Source: Sphingobacterium sp. T2
GTDB taxonomy: Bacteria; Bacteroidota; Bacteroidia; Sphingobacteriales; Sphingobacteriaceae
Length of the DNA stretch: 60,600 nucleotides
Assembly (NCBI RefSeq): GCF_000814685.1
Contig: NZ_JXAC01000014.1
Span: 1-60,600 of the forward strand
Direction: 5' to 3'
How positions within the stretch are numbered: the stretch's first letter is position 1; each line of letters begins with the position of its first letter. The position numbers were made by a program, and so were the translations under genes. Below, piece by piece: positions 51,790-59,119 of this stretch. The notes below the pieces were generated by a model. It saw only the letters and a program-made list of their open reading frames with translations. It made no database searches and was not told the origin of the DNA.

Positions 51790-54505
51790 TTATTTTTGAA
51801 GTCGGATATTTAAAGCCAACATAATGTATCTGCCCAAGCGGCTTTTACGCTCCTCATATAGATCATTTCCAATATATTCCGAATAGATTCCCATATTAGT
51901 ATTCTGATCGAAGAGATCGTACGCATGGATACGTAACATGGCTGTCCTATTTTGCAAAAAGGAATATTCTATAAATGCATTCATCAATGTCTGGTTTACA
52001 TTCATGAAATTATTGAAATACCCATCATTGTTACGTTGCGACATTTCCACCCCCATAGAGAAATTGTCTTTTACATAACCTTTTATCCCCAATCCCAAAA
52101 ACAAAGATTGCACATTGATTCTTGTTCGGAAAGGAATATCATAGCGGGCATAATTTTGGGAATAGACGGCATTCAATGAAGATTCAACATATTCATCCAA
52201 AGAATATTTCAATTTCAATGCCTGTTGGAACAAAAACTGTTTGGTGGTTCTCTTACGATCTTCGATGAATGAAAGGTTATTGAAATAGTTTACACTTCCA
52301 TCTAGGTTAAGTTGCCAGCTGTCTCCTCCCAAAGGCGTATTGAAAATATAATTTAACTTCCAGTCGTAATATCCATTGGTATTGCGGAATGTAGTCTGCT
52401 GGATGGTAGTGTTTTCTAAAGGCTTTTTGTCATTAACAATTTTATCTTTTACCTTGTTGAAGATAAAGCTGGTTTCTAGATATTGCATGCGTACCGGAAA
52501 AAACGCTCTTACCGTGCTGAGAAAACTATGAGTAAACTCCGACTTCAACTCCGGATTACCGATGATGATATTCCTCGAGTTCGTGTTATTCCTTACAGGG
52601 GCAATTTGGAAAAAACTCGGCTCGTTATTTTTACCTTTATAGCTCAACTGGAAATCCAGATTATTCGAAATCTTATATGTAAGGTTTGATGTAGGTACCA
52701 AATTGATGTTGTCGTAGCTGTATGTTAAGGTGTCGTTCAAAATTTCCCCCAGCATCTTAATAGGTTGTACGGCAAAACCTATGTTAAACTTCAGTTTCTT
52801 CGGAAGGTTATATTGGTAAGTAATGCCCATCTTATTGGTGAAATATTGATAACCATAATCTACCGTCAAAGAGTCAATAATTCCTCGAGGTTGATTATTA
52901 ATCCAGTTGTATGTATATCGGCTAGCGTCAATTCTGTTGTGTTCGAATTCATACTTGAATTCAAACAATCCATTATTCAGAAAAGGTTCTACATAAGACA
53001 TCATCAGATTTTTGGAATCGTTATAATTTTTCATATCCACAAACTGATGATTTAGCTCCATCACCGTATCTAATGACATCTGATAAGCTACCGTATATTC
53101 CTCGTTAACGTACTCTCTGTCGGTAAGTTTGTAGGCACGTAAGCCCATCTTTCCCACAAACTTCCGATTCTTGTTCTCGAAATTCTTCACAAAGGTCATT
53201 TCGACATTTCCCATAGGAAGAACCTGTTTGGTAGAGTCTGTATTGTTACCTTTATTTTGTAAGAATGAGTTACTCAATTCTGTTTTTCGCTCATTCATAT
53301 AGGATTTATTATGTAAAGTGAAGTTACCTTCGATTTTCAGCAAGTCCTCATTCTCAAATTTTTTATCCAGCAAAAACCTGAGAATTATGATTATAGTCGT
53401 TTTGTATGATATCAAAATCTTCTGTCTTAGTGATGGTATTGCCTGTATAGGCTGACTTCATGTTTGAAAAACCTGTAACCTGACTATTCTTATGTATAAA
53501 ATTATAAGCTCCACTTAGTCTGGTCCGCGAATTAATTTTTTTGACCCAGTTAGTTCCTATGGAGTAAGTCGTATTGATGCCGTCCGTAGGATCAATATAT
53601 TCATCAATATCAAAAGATTTAGTATTGCGGCTTCCTCCCATAATATCGCCAAAAGAAAATAAATTCGTATTGGTATTATTGATAGATCCAAGGATAGACA
53701 TCTCGTTACCATCGTCAAATCTGTTGATGCCGAAGCTTCCTAGGTAGCGTTGGTTGGTTCCTGCTCCAAAAGTGAGCTGTCCAAAATGGAATATTTTACG
53801 GTCTTCTTTTAGGTTTATGTTCAATATTTTCTCGGTGGCCTGATTGTCCACAATGCCGTTGTCGGCGGCATCATTCTCATTGCGGACTTCTATAAGTTGA
53901 ATATTGTTAATATAATCCACCGGAAGGTTTTTTGTCGCCGTAAGTACGTCTCCACCAAAAAAATCAATTATTATTTACCCTAACCCTCCGTATATGGTAC
54001 CATTAAAATATACAGATCCGTCGCGCAACACCTGAAAGCCGGGGAGTTTCTTAAGACCATCTTCCAGAAGGGCGTGCTTACCGAACCTAAACGCTCCCAT
54101 ATTATACTGAATCGTATCTCCATTGACCACAATAGGAATTACCTTGGTCACTGTGACATCTTCTATGATAAAAGCTGCCCTACTCAATATTACATTGGGA
54201 AGTTTATTGTTGATTAAATCTTTACGTGTAAAGAAAAACTCTTCATAGGCATAACCTAAGATCGAAAACCCTAAATGAATGGTATAGGTTTCCCTAGGAA
54301 GAGTAAAGCTGTAAATCCCCCTACCGTTGGTGATAGCAAACAGCGTGTCTTTAGGTGTATAAAGACGTACGTTTACATCTTTAATAGGATTGCCCGCAGT
54401 ATCCAAGACCACCCCGCTGAAGTGTTCCTGTCCAAAAACTATTTGAGTTGTAATACATACAACCAGCATAAAAAAACACCCTGTCTTTGTTAATAAACTT
54501 CGCAC
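51790..54505 (-). CDS. TonB-dependent receptor-like outer-membrane beta-barrel protein
   Basis: About 900 residues after a signal (TTQIVFGQ). A CarboxypepD_reg-like domain (GVVLDTAGNPIKDVNVRLY) is followed by a plug-like region and a barrel with a C-terminal strand ending LNIRLQK. Two breaks exist. One is an in-frame TAA at 53975-53977 where the same frame is open on both sides; the motif FFGGDVLTATKNLP just after it is the usual plug sequence, which suggests two compensating indels. The other is near 53375, where NHNSQFLLDKKFENED reads through. It is not next to a SusD gene, so it may not be a glycan importer. The quinone reductase gene follows directly. Confidence 0.85.
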
Positions 54506-54673: not shown

Positions 54674-55201
54674 TTATTCTCCATCGAAAGAAACTTTCAC
54701 CAAATGTCTGTCAATTTCCCAACGGCCGGTACCCTCTTCACCGATAACGTCAAACAATTCCAAGATGCGTCTTGCAACATACTCTTCTTCCACTTGCTCC
54801 TCTAAGAACCATTGTAAGAAGTTAAAAGTAACATAGTCCTTTGCCTTCACACAGGTGTCAGCAATTTTGTTGAACTGTTCAGTTACAAACATCTCTTGCT
54901 CTAATGTCTGCTCGAAAACACCTCTGAACGACTCAAATTCCGAAGGAATATTAGTTATCTCCGGTGAAATAGGTTTACCTCCGCGGCTGCTGATATAATG
55001 AAAAAGCTTCAACATATGCTGACGCTCTTCATCCGACTGCTTCGCAAAGAATTTTGCCGCATTGTCCAACCCTTGATCTTCACACCATGCCGACATAGAA
55101 AGGTATAGTGCCGAAGAATGCGCTTCTACTTTAATCTGTGCGTTCAAAATAATTTCGATCTCTTCTGATAAAGATGATTTTAGTTTCAATAAGTCTTTCA
55201 T
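54674..55201 (-). CDS. ftnA: Bacterial non-haem ferritin
   Basis: Stores iron as ferric mineral in a 24-subunit shell. The start at 55201 gives about 175 residues, the family norm; an upstream frame start would add 13 residues. The four-helix bundle with ferroxidase ligands is readable: EIEIILNAQIKVEAHSSALYL in helix A, DEERQHMLKLFHYI in helix B, and EEQVEEEYVARRILEL in helix D. Intact. Its iron store is close to the copper genes but on the other strand. Confidence 0.93.
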   Translation of the reverse strand: MKDLLKLKSSLSEEIEIILNAQIKVEAHSSALYLSMSAWCEDQGLDNAAKFFAKQSDEERQHMLKLFHYISSRGGKPISPEITNIPSEFESFRGVFEQTLEQEMFVTEQFNKIADTCVKAKDYVTFNFLQWFLEEQVEEEYVARRILELFDVIGEEGTGRWEIDRHLVKVSFDGE

Positions 55202-55383
55202 ATGATGAATATTTTTTTGTTTACAATTATGTACAAGCATAAATAAGCAAAACTCATACCGCTTATTTGCTCTAACAAAAATATACAGAAGAGAATGGGA
55301 AAAAGAATGAAAAAAATGTAATACAAATTCAGTCTAAATTAGACTTTGAATCTGTAACCTATTTAGAATCAGTATAATTTTAA

Positions 55384-55747
55384 TTAGCGAGCCAACATAG
55401 CTCCCTCACGTAGGATGCTCTTAATCTGTCCGTTCAGTTCAATGACAAATTTACGCCCCGTCCAAGATTTCTCGAAGATTTAGAATATCCGACACAGTAA
55501 GTACAAAACAGCGATCGGTACGAAAAGGCATCACAATTTCTACATCCGCACTGCGAGATGAATCACAAATCATCTTCTCTATATCGATACTGTCTATGCG
55601 CTTTTTGAATTTGAAAAAATCACTTACACTGAAGGATGTTGTCGTATTTTGAAATTCTAACCAGTAACAGTTTTTGCGGCTGCATTGATATACAGCTCCC
55701 TCCGATGTCTTAAATACTTCCTCTACGTTTGCTAATGGACAAATCAT
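55384..55747 (-). CDS. DUF6686-family protein
   Basis: A short cytoplasmic protein. I take ATG 55747 (a TTG at 55771 would add residues). It starts MICPLANVEEVFKTSEGAVYQC, with a Cys pair near Cys24/Cys29 (CSRKNCYWLEF), and ends in an open frame that the sequence cuts off at 55451. Reducing GGGG to GGG there gives DGRKFVIELNGQIKSIL and a stop at 55384-55386, so the C-terminus is about 20 residues longer than it appears. Function unknown. Confidence 0.7.
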
Positions 55748-55828
55748 CTTCAATAATCTTGACGCAAACAAAGATATAGCTTATTAAGAATTAATCCAAA
55801 TAAAATTCAACAAGAATAACTACCCTCA

Positions 55829-55859
55829 TTTTGAAATATAGAAGAATGTTGTAACTTTG
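55829..55859 (+). promoter_or_regulatory. Strong candidate promoter of the MbnP/MbnH operon
   Basis: TTTTG at 55829-55833 and TAACTTTG at 55852-55859 are exact matches to the Bacteroidota -33 and -7 elements with an 18-base spacer. The first ATG (55866) begins only six bases after the -7 box, so transcription may start at or very near it. Confidence 0.6.
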
Positions 55860-55865
55860 CGATGC

Positions 55866-56237
55866 ATGAAAAAGTGGCTTACATATCTACTTATTCCTGT
55901 CATGTTAATCCAATGCAACATGACGCTAGTGATATGTACGTCATTTTACTATAATCAAAAATACATCGAAAAATACCTCTGTGTACAGCGCAATATGGAA
56001 CACAACACCTGTCATGGAAAGTGTTACCTAATGAAGAAGCTGAAAGCACAGCAGGAAAATGAACAGAAAAATTTCAAGGTAAACTTCCATGAGGGCTTAG
56101 CTGTGGATCACTTCCAAAATGAGGTCGATTTATGTACAACCGTTACGGAGCTTGCAAAAACATACCCTCTATACTTTTGTAATTTAAATCCGCAAGATTA
56201 TATCTATTCGATAGATCATCCCCCTCTCTTTATTTAA
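55866..56237 (+). CDS. Small membrane-anchored Cys-motif protein of copper cassette
   Basis: A 123-residue protein from ATG 55866 (an earlier TTG at 55857 lies inside the -7 box and is unlikely). It starts with a membrane or signal segment (WLTYLLIPVMLIQCNMTLVIC) and has Cys39, Cys49 and Cys53 in the motif C-H-G-K-C. Similar proteins with CHGKC or CNGKC are often found beside MbnP-like and cytochrome-peroxidase-like genes in Bacteroidota; a copper-chaperone or assembly role is possible but unproven. The rest is charged (KKLKAQQENEQKNF), then aromatic near the end. It is separated by 110 bp from the MbnP-like gene. Confidence 0.7.
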   Translation: MKKWLTYLLIPVMLIQCNMTLVICTSFYYNQKYIEKYLCVQRNMEHNTCHGKCYLMKKLKAQQENEQKNFKVNFHEGLAVDHFQNEVDLCTTVTELAKTYPLYFCNLNPQDYIYSIDHPPLFI

Positions 56238-56347
56238 TTATTCCTAACACTTGTATTATCCCTACTCCTATGTTGCATCCATCCGTACAGATGGGAGTAG
56301 CATTAATTGTATTTGGTTTTAATTAAATAAAGAATAGATAAGTCAAC

Positions 56348-57151
56348 ATGAAAAATTTATTGGGGGCTTTAGTAGCCATAGTGTTTTTATTTACTAATTG
56401 TAGCAAAACAGAATCTATCGAAACGGACAGCAATAAAAACGGTCAGGTAAAACTTAAATTTGACCTTATAGTCAACGGTAAAAAGCTCGTTCTCAATGAT
56501 TATACCTATACCAATAGCAATGGAGAATCTTTCAACATTTCCCTACTGAAATTCTATGTCAGCAATATCGTCTTAGGCAAGCCTAATGGTGAAACCTACA
56601 CCGTGCCGAAAATGGAGTCTTTCTTTCTGATTGACGCCCAAGATAATAAAAGCCTATATCCTATCATCAGTGCCCCGGAAGGGGAATACAGTTATCTGCA
56701 GTTTAATTTGGGTGTTGACAGCCTTACCAACACCTTACCTGCAGAACAAAGAACCGGCGTTTTGGATGTGTCAAAACACGACATGTATTGGACCTGGAAT
56801 TCCGGTTATATACACTTCAAAATCGAAGGAGCCTCTCCTCAAGCTAATACCGTAAACAATCAATTTAAGTACCATATAGGTTTCTTCGGAGGATATAGCA
56901 GCCCTACACCTAATAACAATAGGATTATAACGCTCGATCTATCAAAGGCTGGCATCAGCAAGGTTCAGGAAAACCTATCCTCAGATATCCACCTCATGGT
57001 AGATATAGGAAGGATCTTCGATGCTGTACATACCATCTCTATAAGTGAGTATCCTACCATCATGACGCAGGGTCCTCACGAGCAAATGGCGGATAATTAC
57101 GCCACTATGTTTACACATGATCATACCCATAACTTCCAAAAAATCAACTGA
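56348..57151 (+). CDS. MbnP-like copper-binding lipoprotein
   Basis: A 267-residue periplasmic lipoprotein (lipobox VFLFTNC, Cys18). It matches the MbnP family: LKFDLIVNGKKLVLN, then FNISLLKFYVSNIVLG, SYLQFNLGVDSLTN, and MYWTWNSGYIHFKIEG (W148 and W150, H156). In methanotroph MbnP and CorA, copper is bound by His and by a Trp oxidised to kynurenine; the di-haem partner MbnH makes this change. The Trp here are candidates. His lie at 144, 156, 176, 215, 228 and 244, and the tail has THDHTHN. The gene overlaps the next by one base. Intact. Confidence 0.88.
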   Translation: MKNLLGALVAIVFLFTNCSKTESIETDSNKNGQVKLKFDLIVNGKKLVLNDYTYTNSNGESFNISLLKFYVSNIVLGKPNGETYTVPKMESFFLIDAQDNKSLYPIISAPEGEYSYLQFNLGVDSLTNTLPAEQRTGVLDVSKHDMYWTWNSGYIHFKIEGASPQANTVNNQFKYHIGFFGGYSSPTPNNNRIITLDLSKAGISKVQENLSSDIHLMVDIGRIFDAVHTISISEYPTIMTQGPHEQMADNYATMFTHDHTHNFQKIN

Positions 57152-58182
57152 TGGTAAACAGAAAAAGATGGTCAGTCTTCGCTATAATCCTTCTAGTGAT
57201 AGTGGCATGTCAAAAAAGCGAAGATCTTAACTTTGAAGAATTTATAGGCTTCCGGAAACCTACACACTTTCCGGATCCTGTATATAATTTTGCCACCACA
57301 CCTCTCACAAAAGAAACCGTGGAATTGGGGCGCAAGTTATTTTATGACGAACGTCTGTCGCGCAACAACACTATCTCTTGCGCAAGCTGTCACATCAGCC
57401 AGAATGCTTTCACGCACCACGGACACGATGTTAGTCACGGCATAGACGATAAATTGGGCATACGCAATGCACCTACCCTTGCCAACCTTGCATGGGCTAC
57501 ATCCTTCTTCTGGGACGGAGGTGTGCCACAGCTGGACCTCGTCTCCTTGGCTGCCATTGTGAATGAGGTGGAGATGGATGAAAACATGAACAATATACTG
57601 GTCAAACTGAAAGCCGACGCTAAATATCCCGATATGTTCACAAAGGCATTCGGCAAAAGTGAATTTTCGGGAAATGAGGTACTAAAAGCATTGGCACATT
57701 TCATGACCACTCTAGTTTCTGACAATTCCAAATACGACAAGGTCAAGCGAGGAGAAGATTCTTTCACCGAAGAAGAAGAAAAAGGCTATCAGCTTTTCTT
57801 AGCCAAATGTAATAGCTGTCATACAGAACCTCTATTCACGGATTACAGCTTCCGCGACAACGGTCTAGGCATTAACCCTGCAAATGATTTGGGAAGATTT
57901 GAAGTGACCCTTAACGAAAAAGATAAACTTCGCTTTAAAGTTCCTACACTGCGCAACTTGAGTTATACAGCGCCTTATATGCATGACGGCAGATTTTACA
58001 CCTTACACGCTGTATTGAATCATTACGCTAAGGAAGTGGTCTTGACAGACAATCTTGATCCTCTCTTGAGGATTAACAAAGGTATTCCCCTGACGAAGGA
58101 AGAAATGGAGGCTCTTCTTAGCTTCCTCAAAACGCTGGACGACGAATCTTTCATTCAAAACAAAAACTTCATACAACCATGA
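57151..58182 (+). CDS. MauG/MbnH-like di-haem cytochrome c peroxidase-family protein
   Basis: A lipoprotein (VIVAC, Cys20) of 343 residues with two haem-c sites, CASCH (77-81) and CNSCH (220-224), and the family motifs ELGRKLFYDERLSRNNTISC, APTLANLAWATSFFWDGG and APYMHDGRFYTLHAV. It belongs to the bacterial cytochrome c peroxidase/MauG group. Its adjacency to an MbnP-like gene, with a one-base overlap (TGATG), makes an MbnH-like role, oxidising a Trp of MbnP, more likely than peroxide removal. It overlaps the next gene by four bases. Confidence 0.9.
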   Translation: MVNRKRWSVFAIILLVIVACQKSEDLNFEEFIGFRKPTHFPDPVYNFATTPLTKETVELGRKLFYDERLSRNNTISCASCHISQNAFTHHGHDVSHGIDDKLGIRNAPTLANLAWATSFFWDGGVPQLDLVSLAAIVNEVEMDENMNNILVKLKADAKYPDMFTKAFGKSEFSGNEVLKALAHFMTTLVSDNSKYDKVKRGEDSFTEEEEKGYQLFLAKCNSCHTEPLFTDYSFRDNGLGINPANDLGRFEVTLNEKDKLRFKVPTLRNLSYTAPYMHDGRFYTLHAVLNHYAKEVVLTDNLDPLLRINKGIPLTKEEMEALLSFLKTLDDESFIQNKNFIQP

Positions 58183-59081
58183 AAAAATTAACTGCACTCA
58201 TCATAGCCTACTTCGCTGCAACAGGTGCTTATGCCTGTGATATCTGTGGCGGAGGTCTCGGAAATTCATACAATGGGCTCCTTCCCAACTTCAACAAGAG
58301 GTTCGTTGGAGTTCGCTATCACTTTAATCAACTTTACACGCAGCTGGATATTCATGGAAATATTACGGCCTTGAGTAATAAAGAGAAGTACCATACCGCC
58401 GAGATTTGGTCTGCTTGGAATATCCATCCCAAGTGGAGGGTGATGGCTATTATTCCTTACAGCAAAATATTCAAATACAATTATGGTACTACATCTGAAA
58501 TCAATAAATCTGGATTAGGAGACATTAATGTTAGTACTTACTATAATCTACTGAACACCTCAAATAACAGCAACCATAATGTCTGGCTGGGTATCGGCGT
58601 TAAGCTACCTACGGGAGAATATCGTAAAGAAGACTTAGACACCAATTCACCTAACATCTATCAGTTAGGAACAGGAAGCTTAGACCTTATTGCCAGCGCC
58701 AGCTACGACATCCGTGTAGACAATATGGGCCTGAATACCAACCTAAGTTATAAATGGAATACAGAAAATAGTGAAAAGTACCGCTATGGCAATAAGACTA
58801 CACTGAATGCCAGTCTCTACTACCTTCATGCTTTTTCAGAGAAGAGTAACATACGTCCTCATGCAGGAATCCAATATGAATATCAAACGAAAGATAGGAC
58901 TTTAGGGTATATACTGGATCAAACCGGAGGATACAACCTTAACCTTAATGTAGGTGCAGAAGCCACTATACACAAACTGGCGGTGGGAGTCTTCTACCAA
59001 TCTCCTCTTCAGCAAAATATCAGTAATCATCGTACCGAACTTATTCAAAAGGTAGGAATGCATGTTACTTTCACCTTCTAA
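58179..59081 (+). CDS. Outer-membrane beta-barrel protein with N-terminal CxxC
   Basis: 300 residues. A signal peptide ends at AYAC, and Cys20-Asp-Ile-Cys23 starts the mature protein (ACDICGGGLG). The rest is beta-barrel-like: alternating strands ending in KVGMHVTFTF, a C-terminal Phe, and a LGIGVKLPTGEYRKED loop as in transporter-type barrels. Similar proteins in Bacteroidota carry CDICGC near the start. It may be a copper or redox-linked channel, given its coupled gene order, but no activity is known. Intact; followed by a palindromic terminator. Confidence 0.8.
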   Translation: MKKLTALIIAYFAATGAYACDICGGGLGNSYNGLLPNFNKRFVGVRYHFNQLYTQLDIHGNITALSNKEKYHTAEIWSAWNIHPKWRVMAIIPYSKIFKYNYGTTSEINKSGLGDINVSTYYNLLNTSNNSNHNVWLGIGVKLPTGEYRKEDLDTNSPNIYQLGTGSLDLIASASYDIRVDNMGLNTNLSYKWNTENSEKYRYGNKTTLNASLYYLHAFSEKSNIRPHAGIQYEYQTKDRTLGYILDQTGGYNLNLNVGAEATIHKLAVGVFYQSPLQQNISNHRTELIQKVGMHVTFTF

Positions 59082-59083
59082 AA

Positions 59084-59119
59084 AGTAAGGGCTTCAACTT
59101 TAAAGTTGAAGCCCTTACT
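59084..59119. terminator. Perfect palindromic terminator after the copper cassette
   Basis: AGTAAGGGCTTCAACTTT (59084-59101) and AAAGTTGAAGCCCTTACT (59102-59119) are exact inverse complements with no spacer. It lies between the barrel gene and the converging SRPBCC gene and is bidirectional in form, though poly-T is weak. Confidence 0.72.

Follow-up and report, generated by a model that had tools for sequence, protein, structure and literature searches.

A putative copper-handling MbnP/MbnH-type cassette in Sphingobacterium sp. T2 and its candidate copper-sensing leader peptide

Organisation of the cassette

The window analysed here is a 60,600-nucleotide stretch of DNA from Sphingobacterium sp. 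T2 (contig NZ_JXAC01000014.1). Positions 55829-59119 of this window form one cassette of four open reading frames (ORFs), all on the + strand: a small gene with a CHGKC motif, called K here, followed by genes for an MbnP-like lipoprotein, a di-haem enzyme and an outer-membrane beta-barrel. An earlier note on this DNA had described the four as a coupled, general copper-handling unit. The gene order, the strand, and the overlaps of 1 base between MbnP and the di-haem gene and of 4 bases between the di-haem and barrel genes are all borne out by the ORF coordinates. K, on the other hand, is parted from MbnP by 110 nucleotides (nt), so that the coupling holds for the last three genes only.

A Bacteroidota-type promoter box (TTTG-N18-TAACTTTG, 55830-55859, +) lies 6 nt upstream of the K ATG, and an intrinsic-terminator-like hairpin with a 16-bp stem (59084-59119, +) stands at the far end. 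The fold of the hairpin has a z-score of -7.6 and none of 200 shuffles was equally stable. The claim that promoter and terminator bound a single unit is upheld, the edge at 55829 being that of the promoter and not of a gene. In eight of nine Sphingobacterium loci compared (all but L116), TAnnTTTG stands no more than 25 nt ahead of the K ATG, and transcripts of K are thus probably almost leaderless. The upstream TTTG of the box is mostly not kept.

The first gene, K

K encodes 123 amino acids (55866-56237, +, ATG at 55866), with a hydrophobic N-terminal segment recognised by Kyte-Doolittle hydropathy alone, C39, C49xGxC53 and P119P120. The CHGKC codons are at 56010-56024 (+), and 144 of the 146 unique proteins of the family contain CxGxC. 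The codons of the terminal Pro-Pro, in HPPLFI-stop, are at 56220-56225 (+), three residues before the stop, and are the proposed stall site; PP occurs within the last 25 residues of 145 of the 146 unique proteins. The distance from CxGxC to PP is 66.0 +/- 1.9 residues (range 62-73, n = 143, the three of the 146 K proteins without a motif being left out of the count), and linkers of equal length have a median identity of 14.5%. Between 2 and 5 residues come after the PP in 121 of the 143 proteins; the residue in front of it is H, R or Q in 123, with F one place earlier in 99. Conservation of the Cys would fit a sensor or a carrier alike; what favours a leader is that the spacing to a PP beside the stop stays constant. 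Taken with the genomic contexts and the RNA pairing described below, the pattern suggests that K is most likely a copper-sensing leader peptide and not a carrier.

K is present in 126 of the 151 genomes of the family and in 120 of a phylum-wide sample of 296. The gap from K to MbnP has a median of 136 nt and is at least 50 nt in 69 of 71 cases, the other joints measuring 4 and 6 nt; start positions were taken as the first possible ones and gap lengths are approximate. In three sets of loci, upstream of K there is a divergent gene, another K, or a distance of at least 60 nt in 65 of 84, 17 of 19 and 36 of 49 loci, respectively, and K usually, though not always, heads its operon. Where MbnP is missing from a K locus, an ORF of 741-829 amino acids comes next on the same strand in 14 of 16 cases. 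These ORFs form one TonB-receptor-type cluster, whose representative, L095, matches the Pfam model for TonB-dependent transporters (TBDT). A PepSY_TM-type gene (representative L096) is found in 11 of the 17 such loci retrieved, some of which also have a Sco1 gene or a gene with a heavy-metal-binding domain.

The best surviving alternative, though an unlikely one in our judgement, is that K acts as a chaperone or loader of copper, either free in the periplasm or anchored in a membrane, whose single Cys and CxGxC deliver Cu(I) to MbnP or take it across the outer membrane. The three nearly invariant Cys lie in a region of K that is itself fairly conserved, as it would be in a real metal-binding domain, which weighs against a leader, and the hydrophobic N-terminus and the link of K to MbnP loci would suit a chaperone as well. 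The remainder of K is nevertheless hardly conserved save for the PP beside the stop, a position for which we know of no chaperone role. K also precedes receptor genes in loci that lack MbnP, and it is followed by a long structured gap whereas the other genes are coupled. The loader or carrier function offered in the earlier note thus fits the conservation pattern and the contexts less well than does a copper-sensing leader peptide.

Predicted RNA pairing between K and MbnP

The gaps between K and MbnP fold more stably than dinucleotide shuffles of them (mean z -1.86, n = 70, 20 shuffles per sequence), and equal-length DNA upstream of K gives -0.19. K gaps outside approximately 60-260 nt were left out of this test and of the end-to-end test given below. 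In the window a 14-bp RNA stem is predicted. Its 5' arm (56227-56240, +) starts one base after the PP codons and includes the K stop, and its 3' arm (56320-56333, +) lies 15-28 nt upstream of the MbnP ATG. The stem region has a z-score of -3.6, with 2 of 200 shuffles equally stable. Over 84 distinct gaps (identical pairs taken once, gaps under about 70 nt left out) the region of the K stop pairs with the region before MbnP with a mean z of -0.72 relative to shuffles of the latter (p = 4e-6), and 13 of the 84 are under -2. For 12 loci of the genus, pairing within a locus beats pairing between species (permutation p = 0.0002), and the stem is made of different sequences in different species, which amounts to partial support from covariation for the predicted stem.

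Several observations weigh against K as a leader acting through this stem. The number of gaps with at least 8 end-to-end pairs (26 of 70) is no higher than the 26.4 expected from shuffles, the window duplex is not significant when compared with shuffles of its AT-rich arm (z = -0.94), and four of the 12 genus loci (L116, L118, L189 and L142; z from -0.75 to +1.07) have no clear stem. A barrel interval varies as little as that in K (standard deviation 1.5), so fixed spacing is not unique to K. Finally, a same-strand gene lies less than 60 nt upstream of K in 19 of 84, 2 of 19 and 13 of 49 loci of the three sets.

Comparison with known copper leaders

In CruR of Bordetella pertussis, a DUF2946 protein encoded by a copper-responsive upstream ORF, 45 residues separate CXXC from RAPP; TBDT and PepSY_TM genes lie downstream in its operons, MbnPH-like genes are listed in such operons, and Bacteroidota are not mentioned in the available part of that account (PMC9426467). 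Stalling by CruR has been shown in vitro (PMC12992588). K resembles CruR in being a first gene with a Cys motif, a C-terminal PP near the stop, a fixed spacing and a long gap after it, and both head TBDT plus PepSY_TM operons and MbnPH-type operons. CruR differs in its CXXC, where K has CxGxC, and in needing no signal. The RAPP placed 45 residues from CXXC, by which CruR is recognised, is replaced in K by [HRQ]PP at 66.0 +/- 1.9 residues, which counts against placing K with CruR.

Membership of K in DUF2946 was considered and ruled out, as neither the K of the window nor any of 35 K members matches PF11162; comparison of K with four Sphingobacterium DUF2946 proteins by hhalign gave E = 0.44, which again speaks against kinship with CruR. 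The Pfam DAN domain matches 7 of the 35 members (best E 1.9e-5), and this was read as chance similarity of Cys. As a separate observation, 4 of the 151 genomes, all of the same genus, encode a DUF2946 protein that is rich in His, has Cys of CxxC type and carries RGPP or RAPP at its C-terminus (L197:1387-1791, L198:1495-1983, L199:1486-1875 and L200:1399-1791), with a TonB-receptor-like ORF just downstream. This protein is perhaps a metal-sensing arrest leader.

In Rhodobacter capsulatus the leader CutF is exported, has a CxxxC motif and a proline-rich end, and detects copper in the periplasm; it opens a stem upstream of cutO (PMC9973294). K is like CutF in its CxxxC and its proline-rich C-terminus, and would also share with it export, a stem-loop before the next gene and the sensing of copper in the periplasm; CutF differs in governing a multicopper oxidase, in its spacing (45 compared to 66) and in that no Bacteroidota member is described in the available part of the source. 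By the rules used to collect CutF-like proteins, K has fewer than 150 residues (123), a CxxxC (CHGKC), PP within 15 residues of the C-terminus, and a next gene on the same strand within 1,000 nt (the gap being 110 nt). The CutF-like list D holds 5,334 proteins, 19% of them from Bacteroidota (PMC9973294), so K may already be in that list, unnamed. The copper responses of CruR and CutF run opposite to each other.

RAPP/RGPP leaders of copper genes are reported to be absent from Bacteroidota, and those of TonB class to be general in Gram-negatives (PMC12992588). An arrest-peptide survey describes Bacteroidota leaders of other kinds that end in Pro and precede sec genes (PMC10987492), and two further papers on the Bordetella operon name no Bacteroidota leader in the portions seen (PMC12914433, PMC13038864). 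Among the open-licence papers listed, neither MbnP/MbnH together with this barrel nor a Bacteroidota copper leader of the K type was found. K is best classed as like CruR and CutF in architecture and context rather than as one of them, because it lacks a DUF2946 match and has a spacing of its own.

The MbnP-like protein and its di-haem partner

The MbnP-like lipoprotein (267 amino acids, 56348-57151, +) matches Pfam PF20243 with E = 5.4e-47 and 160.6 bits, above the cut-off of 27. An AlphaFold2 model made from 46 sequences has a mean predicted local distance difference test score (pLDDT) of 91.7 and matches the solved MbnP, 7l6g (Foldseek E 7.1e-11; Z 18.1, root-mean-square deviation 3.3 over 223 residues); the second-best entry reaches a Z of 5.5. 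The codons of WTW (W148 and W150), the candidate site of a kynurenine precursor, are at 56789-56797 (+), and WxW is found in all 54 MbnP proteins with an adjacent di-haem gene. With the Pfam match, the WxW and the predicted fold in agreement, the identity of MbnP is secure at the level of the family. It is not assignable to the NCBIfam equivalog TIGR04052, against which it scores 52.6 bits (cut-off 140). The five nearest MbnP sequences, at 62-68% identity, are all from Sphingobacterium. MbnP matches of 240 bits or less (24 of 163) were treated as secondary copies and set aside.

The idea that WxW is lost from MbnP where no di-haem gene is adjacent was ruled out, since 10 of 12 such proteins keep it. 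All 12 of their genomes have a di-haem gene elsewhere, which is a weak test as 109 of the 151 family genomes have such a match anyway.

The di-haem enzyme (343 amino acids, 57151-58182, +) belongs to PF03150 and has a lipobox-like N-terminus. Its haem motifs are CASCH (57379-57393, +) and CNSCH (57808-57822, +), and H92xxxH96 (57424-57438, +) stands beside the first haem. Its best match in the Protein Data Bank is 6e1c, 'Di-heme enzyme' (E 2.2e-42), which we take to be the MbnH of Methylosinus trichosporium. The two have in common both CxxCH motifs, Trp residues that include W115, W121 and the inter-haem Trp, and a C-terminal LKTL-D tail. The score against NCBIfam TIGR04039 is 220.6 bits, below the cut-off of 362.85, which is passed in none of the 151 family genomes, and so the enzyme is MbnH-like without being assignable to that model.

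H92xxxH96 is a lineage feature, absent from 6e1c. Both His are present in all 77 high-scoring enzymes (76 from named loci and that of the window), are mostly absent from secondary tandem copies, and in an alignment are found in 45 of the 48 main enzymes of class and family loci, with or without the barrel. A role for them as a barrel-specific His cluster was for that reason ruled out. The axial Met position of cytochrome c peroxidases was also tried as a class marker and dropped, the position being variable. The scores below cut-off, together with the H92/H96 feature, place the pair as a divergent Bacteroidota branch of MbnP/MbnH and not as the methanotroph-type equivalog.

A conventional explanation, which we regard as improbable, is that the di-haem enzyme is an ordinary peroxidase and MbnP an unrelated binder of metal or substrate, with no Trp converted. 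The missed TIGR04039 and TIGR04052 cut-offs would be expected from it and also count against the MbnP/MbnH assignment, as would an HxxxH near haem 1 unlike anything in 6e1c. It does not readily account for the fold match to 7l6g or for WxW in 54 of 54 proteins. None of the 151 genomes has MbnP without a TIGR04039 match: 74 of 74 MbnP genomes have one at E of 0.001 or better, and MbnP occurs in none of the 42 genomes without one. Furthermore, W115 and the C-terminal tail are held in common with 6e1c and not with the other TIGR04039 match of the same genome (L192), in which W121 is kept and W115 and the tail Asp are absent. The proposal that the two proteins are an MbnP/MbnH-type pair therefore stands, in that profile matches and the predicted fold show an MbnP-fold lipoprotein and an MbnH-type partner. 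Its placement outside any methanobactin context also agrees with the genome, in which no gene of the MbnB family, PF05114, the sole methanobactin family searched, was found.

The window pair is like the MbnP and MbnH of methanobactin operons (M. trichosporium 7l6g and 6e1c) in its adjacency, its MbnP fold and its WxW, and in the CxxCH motifs, W115/W121 and C-terminal tail of the enzyme. It is unlike them in its scores, in HxxxH by haem 1, in the HxH tail of MbnP described below, in its association with a barrel and K, and in a genome without an MbnB-family gene. According to one paper, where they are headed 'mysterious partners', the pair occurs far beyond methanobactin producers (PMC3621798). 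In the MopE/SACCP and CorA/CorB systems of methanotrophs, a surface copper protein with a kynurenine ligand is co-transcribed with a di-haem peroxidase-like gene (PMC3912023). The window would have a comparable pairing of a putative copper protein with a di-haem protein, K and the barrel being additional; no MopE or CorA chain is among the fold matches listed for the MbnP model.

The barrel and the MbnP tail

The fourth gene (300 amino acids, 58179-59081, +) encodes an outer-membrane beta-barrel of FapF/COG4313-type fold, predicted to be 12-13-stranded and channel-like, with CDICGG at its presumed mature N-terminus. The model has a pLDDT of 87.8 and matches FapF (5o67, Foldseek E 8.8e-12) and a COG4313 channel (4rl8, E 5.7e-11), the identity being 12-17% among the matches listed. 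Unlike those channels it has the CDIC(GC) motif and stands in a copper-cassette context. CDIC (58236-58247, +) comes directly after an AxA-type signal-peptidase site, so the mature barrel would start with Cys; the model is of low confidence here, pLDDT being below 50 over residues 14-30, which include the motif.

The C-terminal HDHTHN tail of MbnP (57116-57133, +) goes with the presence of the barrel. Two patterns were used to draw the 80 named loci, one of them the MbnP tail itself, and since this biases them towards the tail the test was repeated on loci chosen by Pfam score alone. In these a [DE]HxHN-type tail is present in 33 of 38 loci with the barrel and in 0 of 19 without it; with the named loci added the figures are 94 of 108 and 4 of 31. 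For 13 phylogenetically independent pairs, scored with a broader tail motif, 6 are concordant, none discordant and 7 uninformative. Absence of the barrel from loci that end at contig ends (eg L160, L174 and L175) is not evidence. The association suggests possible contact or copper exchange between the MbnP tail and the barrel. Two facts sit less well with this: 14 loci with the barrel lack the strict tail, and the barrel of the window has Gly in place of the third Cys of the commoner CDICGC.

In L092 and L093 the barrel gene comes straight after K, and the stretch fetched contains neither MbnP nor a di-haem gene; L092 also has Sco1. This arrangement suggests that K and the barrel can occur as an independent unit.

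Co-occurrence of the four genes

Matches in the census were accepted at E of 1e-5 or better in the named and K-only loci and at 1e-3 elsewhere. The order K, MbnP, di-haem gene, barrel is found in 65 of the 80 named loci brought in by MbnP. Loci L032-L091 were hand-picked from the best-scoring MbnP matches and are not a random sample, and L162 and L163 are from one genome. Of 22 family loci, the window included, 19 have all four genes and 3 lack the barrel. The 39 class loci are more varied: 12 have all four, 15 have MbnP and the di-haem gene only and 7 have K, MbnP and the barrel, the rest comprising one with K only, one with barrel and di-haem gene, two with nothing else and one in which no MbnP was called. 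The seven loci with K, MbnP and barrel and no di-haem gene nearby tell against a fixed four-gene unit, although their genomes hold a di-haem gene elsewhere.

Among the 151 family genomes MbnP is found in 74, the barrel (above 100 bits) in 62 and both in 59, so that MbnP is present in 59 of 62 barrel genomes and in 15 of 89 others (Fisher p = 1.6e-23, uncorrected for kinship). Barrel matches at E of 0.001 were seen in 76 genomes, and the 14 with weak ones only (under 50 bits) were dropped. The cassette is widely conserved in Bacteroidota and its central pair is of a known kind. Lack of co-occurrence in related genomes, which the earlier note had named as the finding that would count against its reading, was not seen. 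A search for the barrel on plasmids gave four weak matches, none of them covering 80%.

In 11 of the 65 complete loci (L127, L128, L132, L141, L152, L153, L159, L164, L168, L171 and L172) a second MbnP'-MbnH' pair stands in tandem, in the order K-MbnP'-MbnH'-MbnP-MbnH-barrel. The second pair is divergent, without the HxH tail and mostly without the haem-1 His.

Clusters of neighbours in subsets of the loci include an OprC-like receptor (6 loci), Sco1 (6) and YtkA (5), each judged from one representative. For the OprC-like representative the best structural match is OprC itself (E 5.6e-5), set against which it has no Pfam match at E 0.01. These neighbours are consistent with the general copper-handling role that had been proposed, and the link is an indirect one.

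A secreted YHYH-domain protein is found near MbnP-MbnH pairs without K and barrel (L049, L052, L053, L056, L057 and L061); the representative from L053 has a type IX-type sorting tail.

Proposed function

On balance we favour the explanation that the cassette is a copper-responsive system for handling copper at the outer membrane and in the periplasm, in which K acts as a nascent-chain copper sensor controlling MbnP, MbnH and the barrel. By analogy with the solved relatives, the di-haem enzyme would convert a Trp of the MbnP WxW to kynurenine and so create a copper site; the HxH tail of MbnP may exchange copper with the N-terminal Cys motif of the barrel at the outer membrane. A chain of about 66 residues is roughly long enough to extend from the peptidyl-transferase centre along the tunnel and across SecYEG. 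During export of K its three Cys would emerge in the periplasm at the time when the ribosome comes to the terminal PP, and binding of copper to them would change the stall there. A ribosome stalled at this point would sit on the 5' arm of the stem, whose 3' arm is 15-28 nt before the MbnP start, and translation (or termination) of MbnP, MbnH and barrel could be controlled in this way. A reading in which K is a passive small ORF, and the gap serves merely for ordinary attenuation or processing, would suit gaps that are structured on average and uneven support for a specific stem, and is the least probable of the alternatives in view of the conservation and fixed spacing of K at the protein level.

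A wider form of this proposal can be put forward only tentatively, and we hold it at somewhat less than an even chance. K would represent a phylum-wide Bacteroidota family of CxGxC...PP nascent-chain metal sensors, without detectable similarity to DUF2946, that reads periplasmic copper by a ruler of about 66 residues and controls TonB-receptor/PepSY_TM operons as well as MbnP-MbnH-barrel, with the barrel Cys motif and the MbnP HxH tail forming an outer-membrane copper hand-off.

To our knowledge little work has been done on the acquisition and control of copper in Bacteroidota. Should K prove to be a copper-sensing arrest peptide, a short gene family would mark candidate copper-responsive operons across the phylum, and its longer spacing would suit sensing outside the membrane. 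Regulation of the CruR/CutF type would also be extended to a phylum reported to lack RAPP/RGPP leaders for its copper genes (PMC12992588). The barrel and the HxH tail would supply partners for the pair once headed 'mysterious partners' (PMC3621798). What is new is that the first gene is read here as a possible nascent-chain copper sensor, for the cassette and for the receptor loci across the phylum.

Neighbouring genes

A ferritin gene (54674-55240, -) and a DUF6686 gene (55451-55771, -) lie upstream of the cassette and are divergent from it. Further upstream a large outer-membrane protein gene (51790-54505, -) is spread over several ORFs, and in the relative L114 it is a single ORF of 904 amino acids. 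By tblastn it is in two frames, and other genes of the window also look split, so the assembly of the window may carry frameshifts. Downstream of the cassette are pyrE and a polyketide-cyclase-like gene, which recur beside nine other loci of the set.

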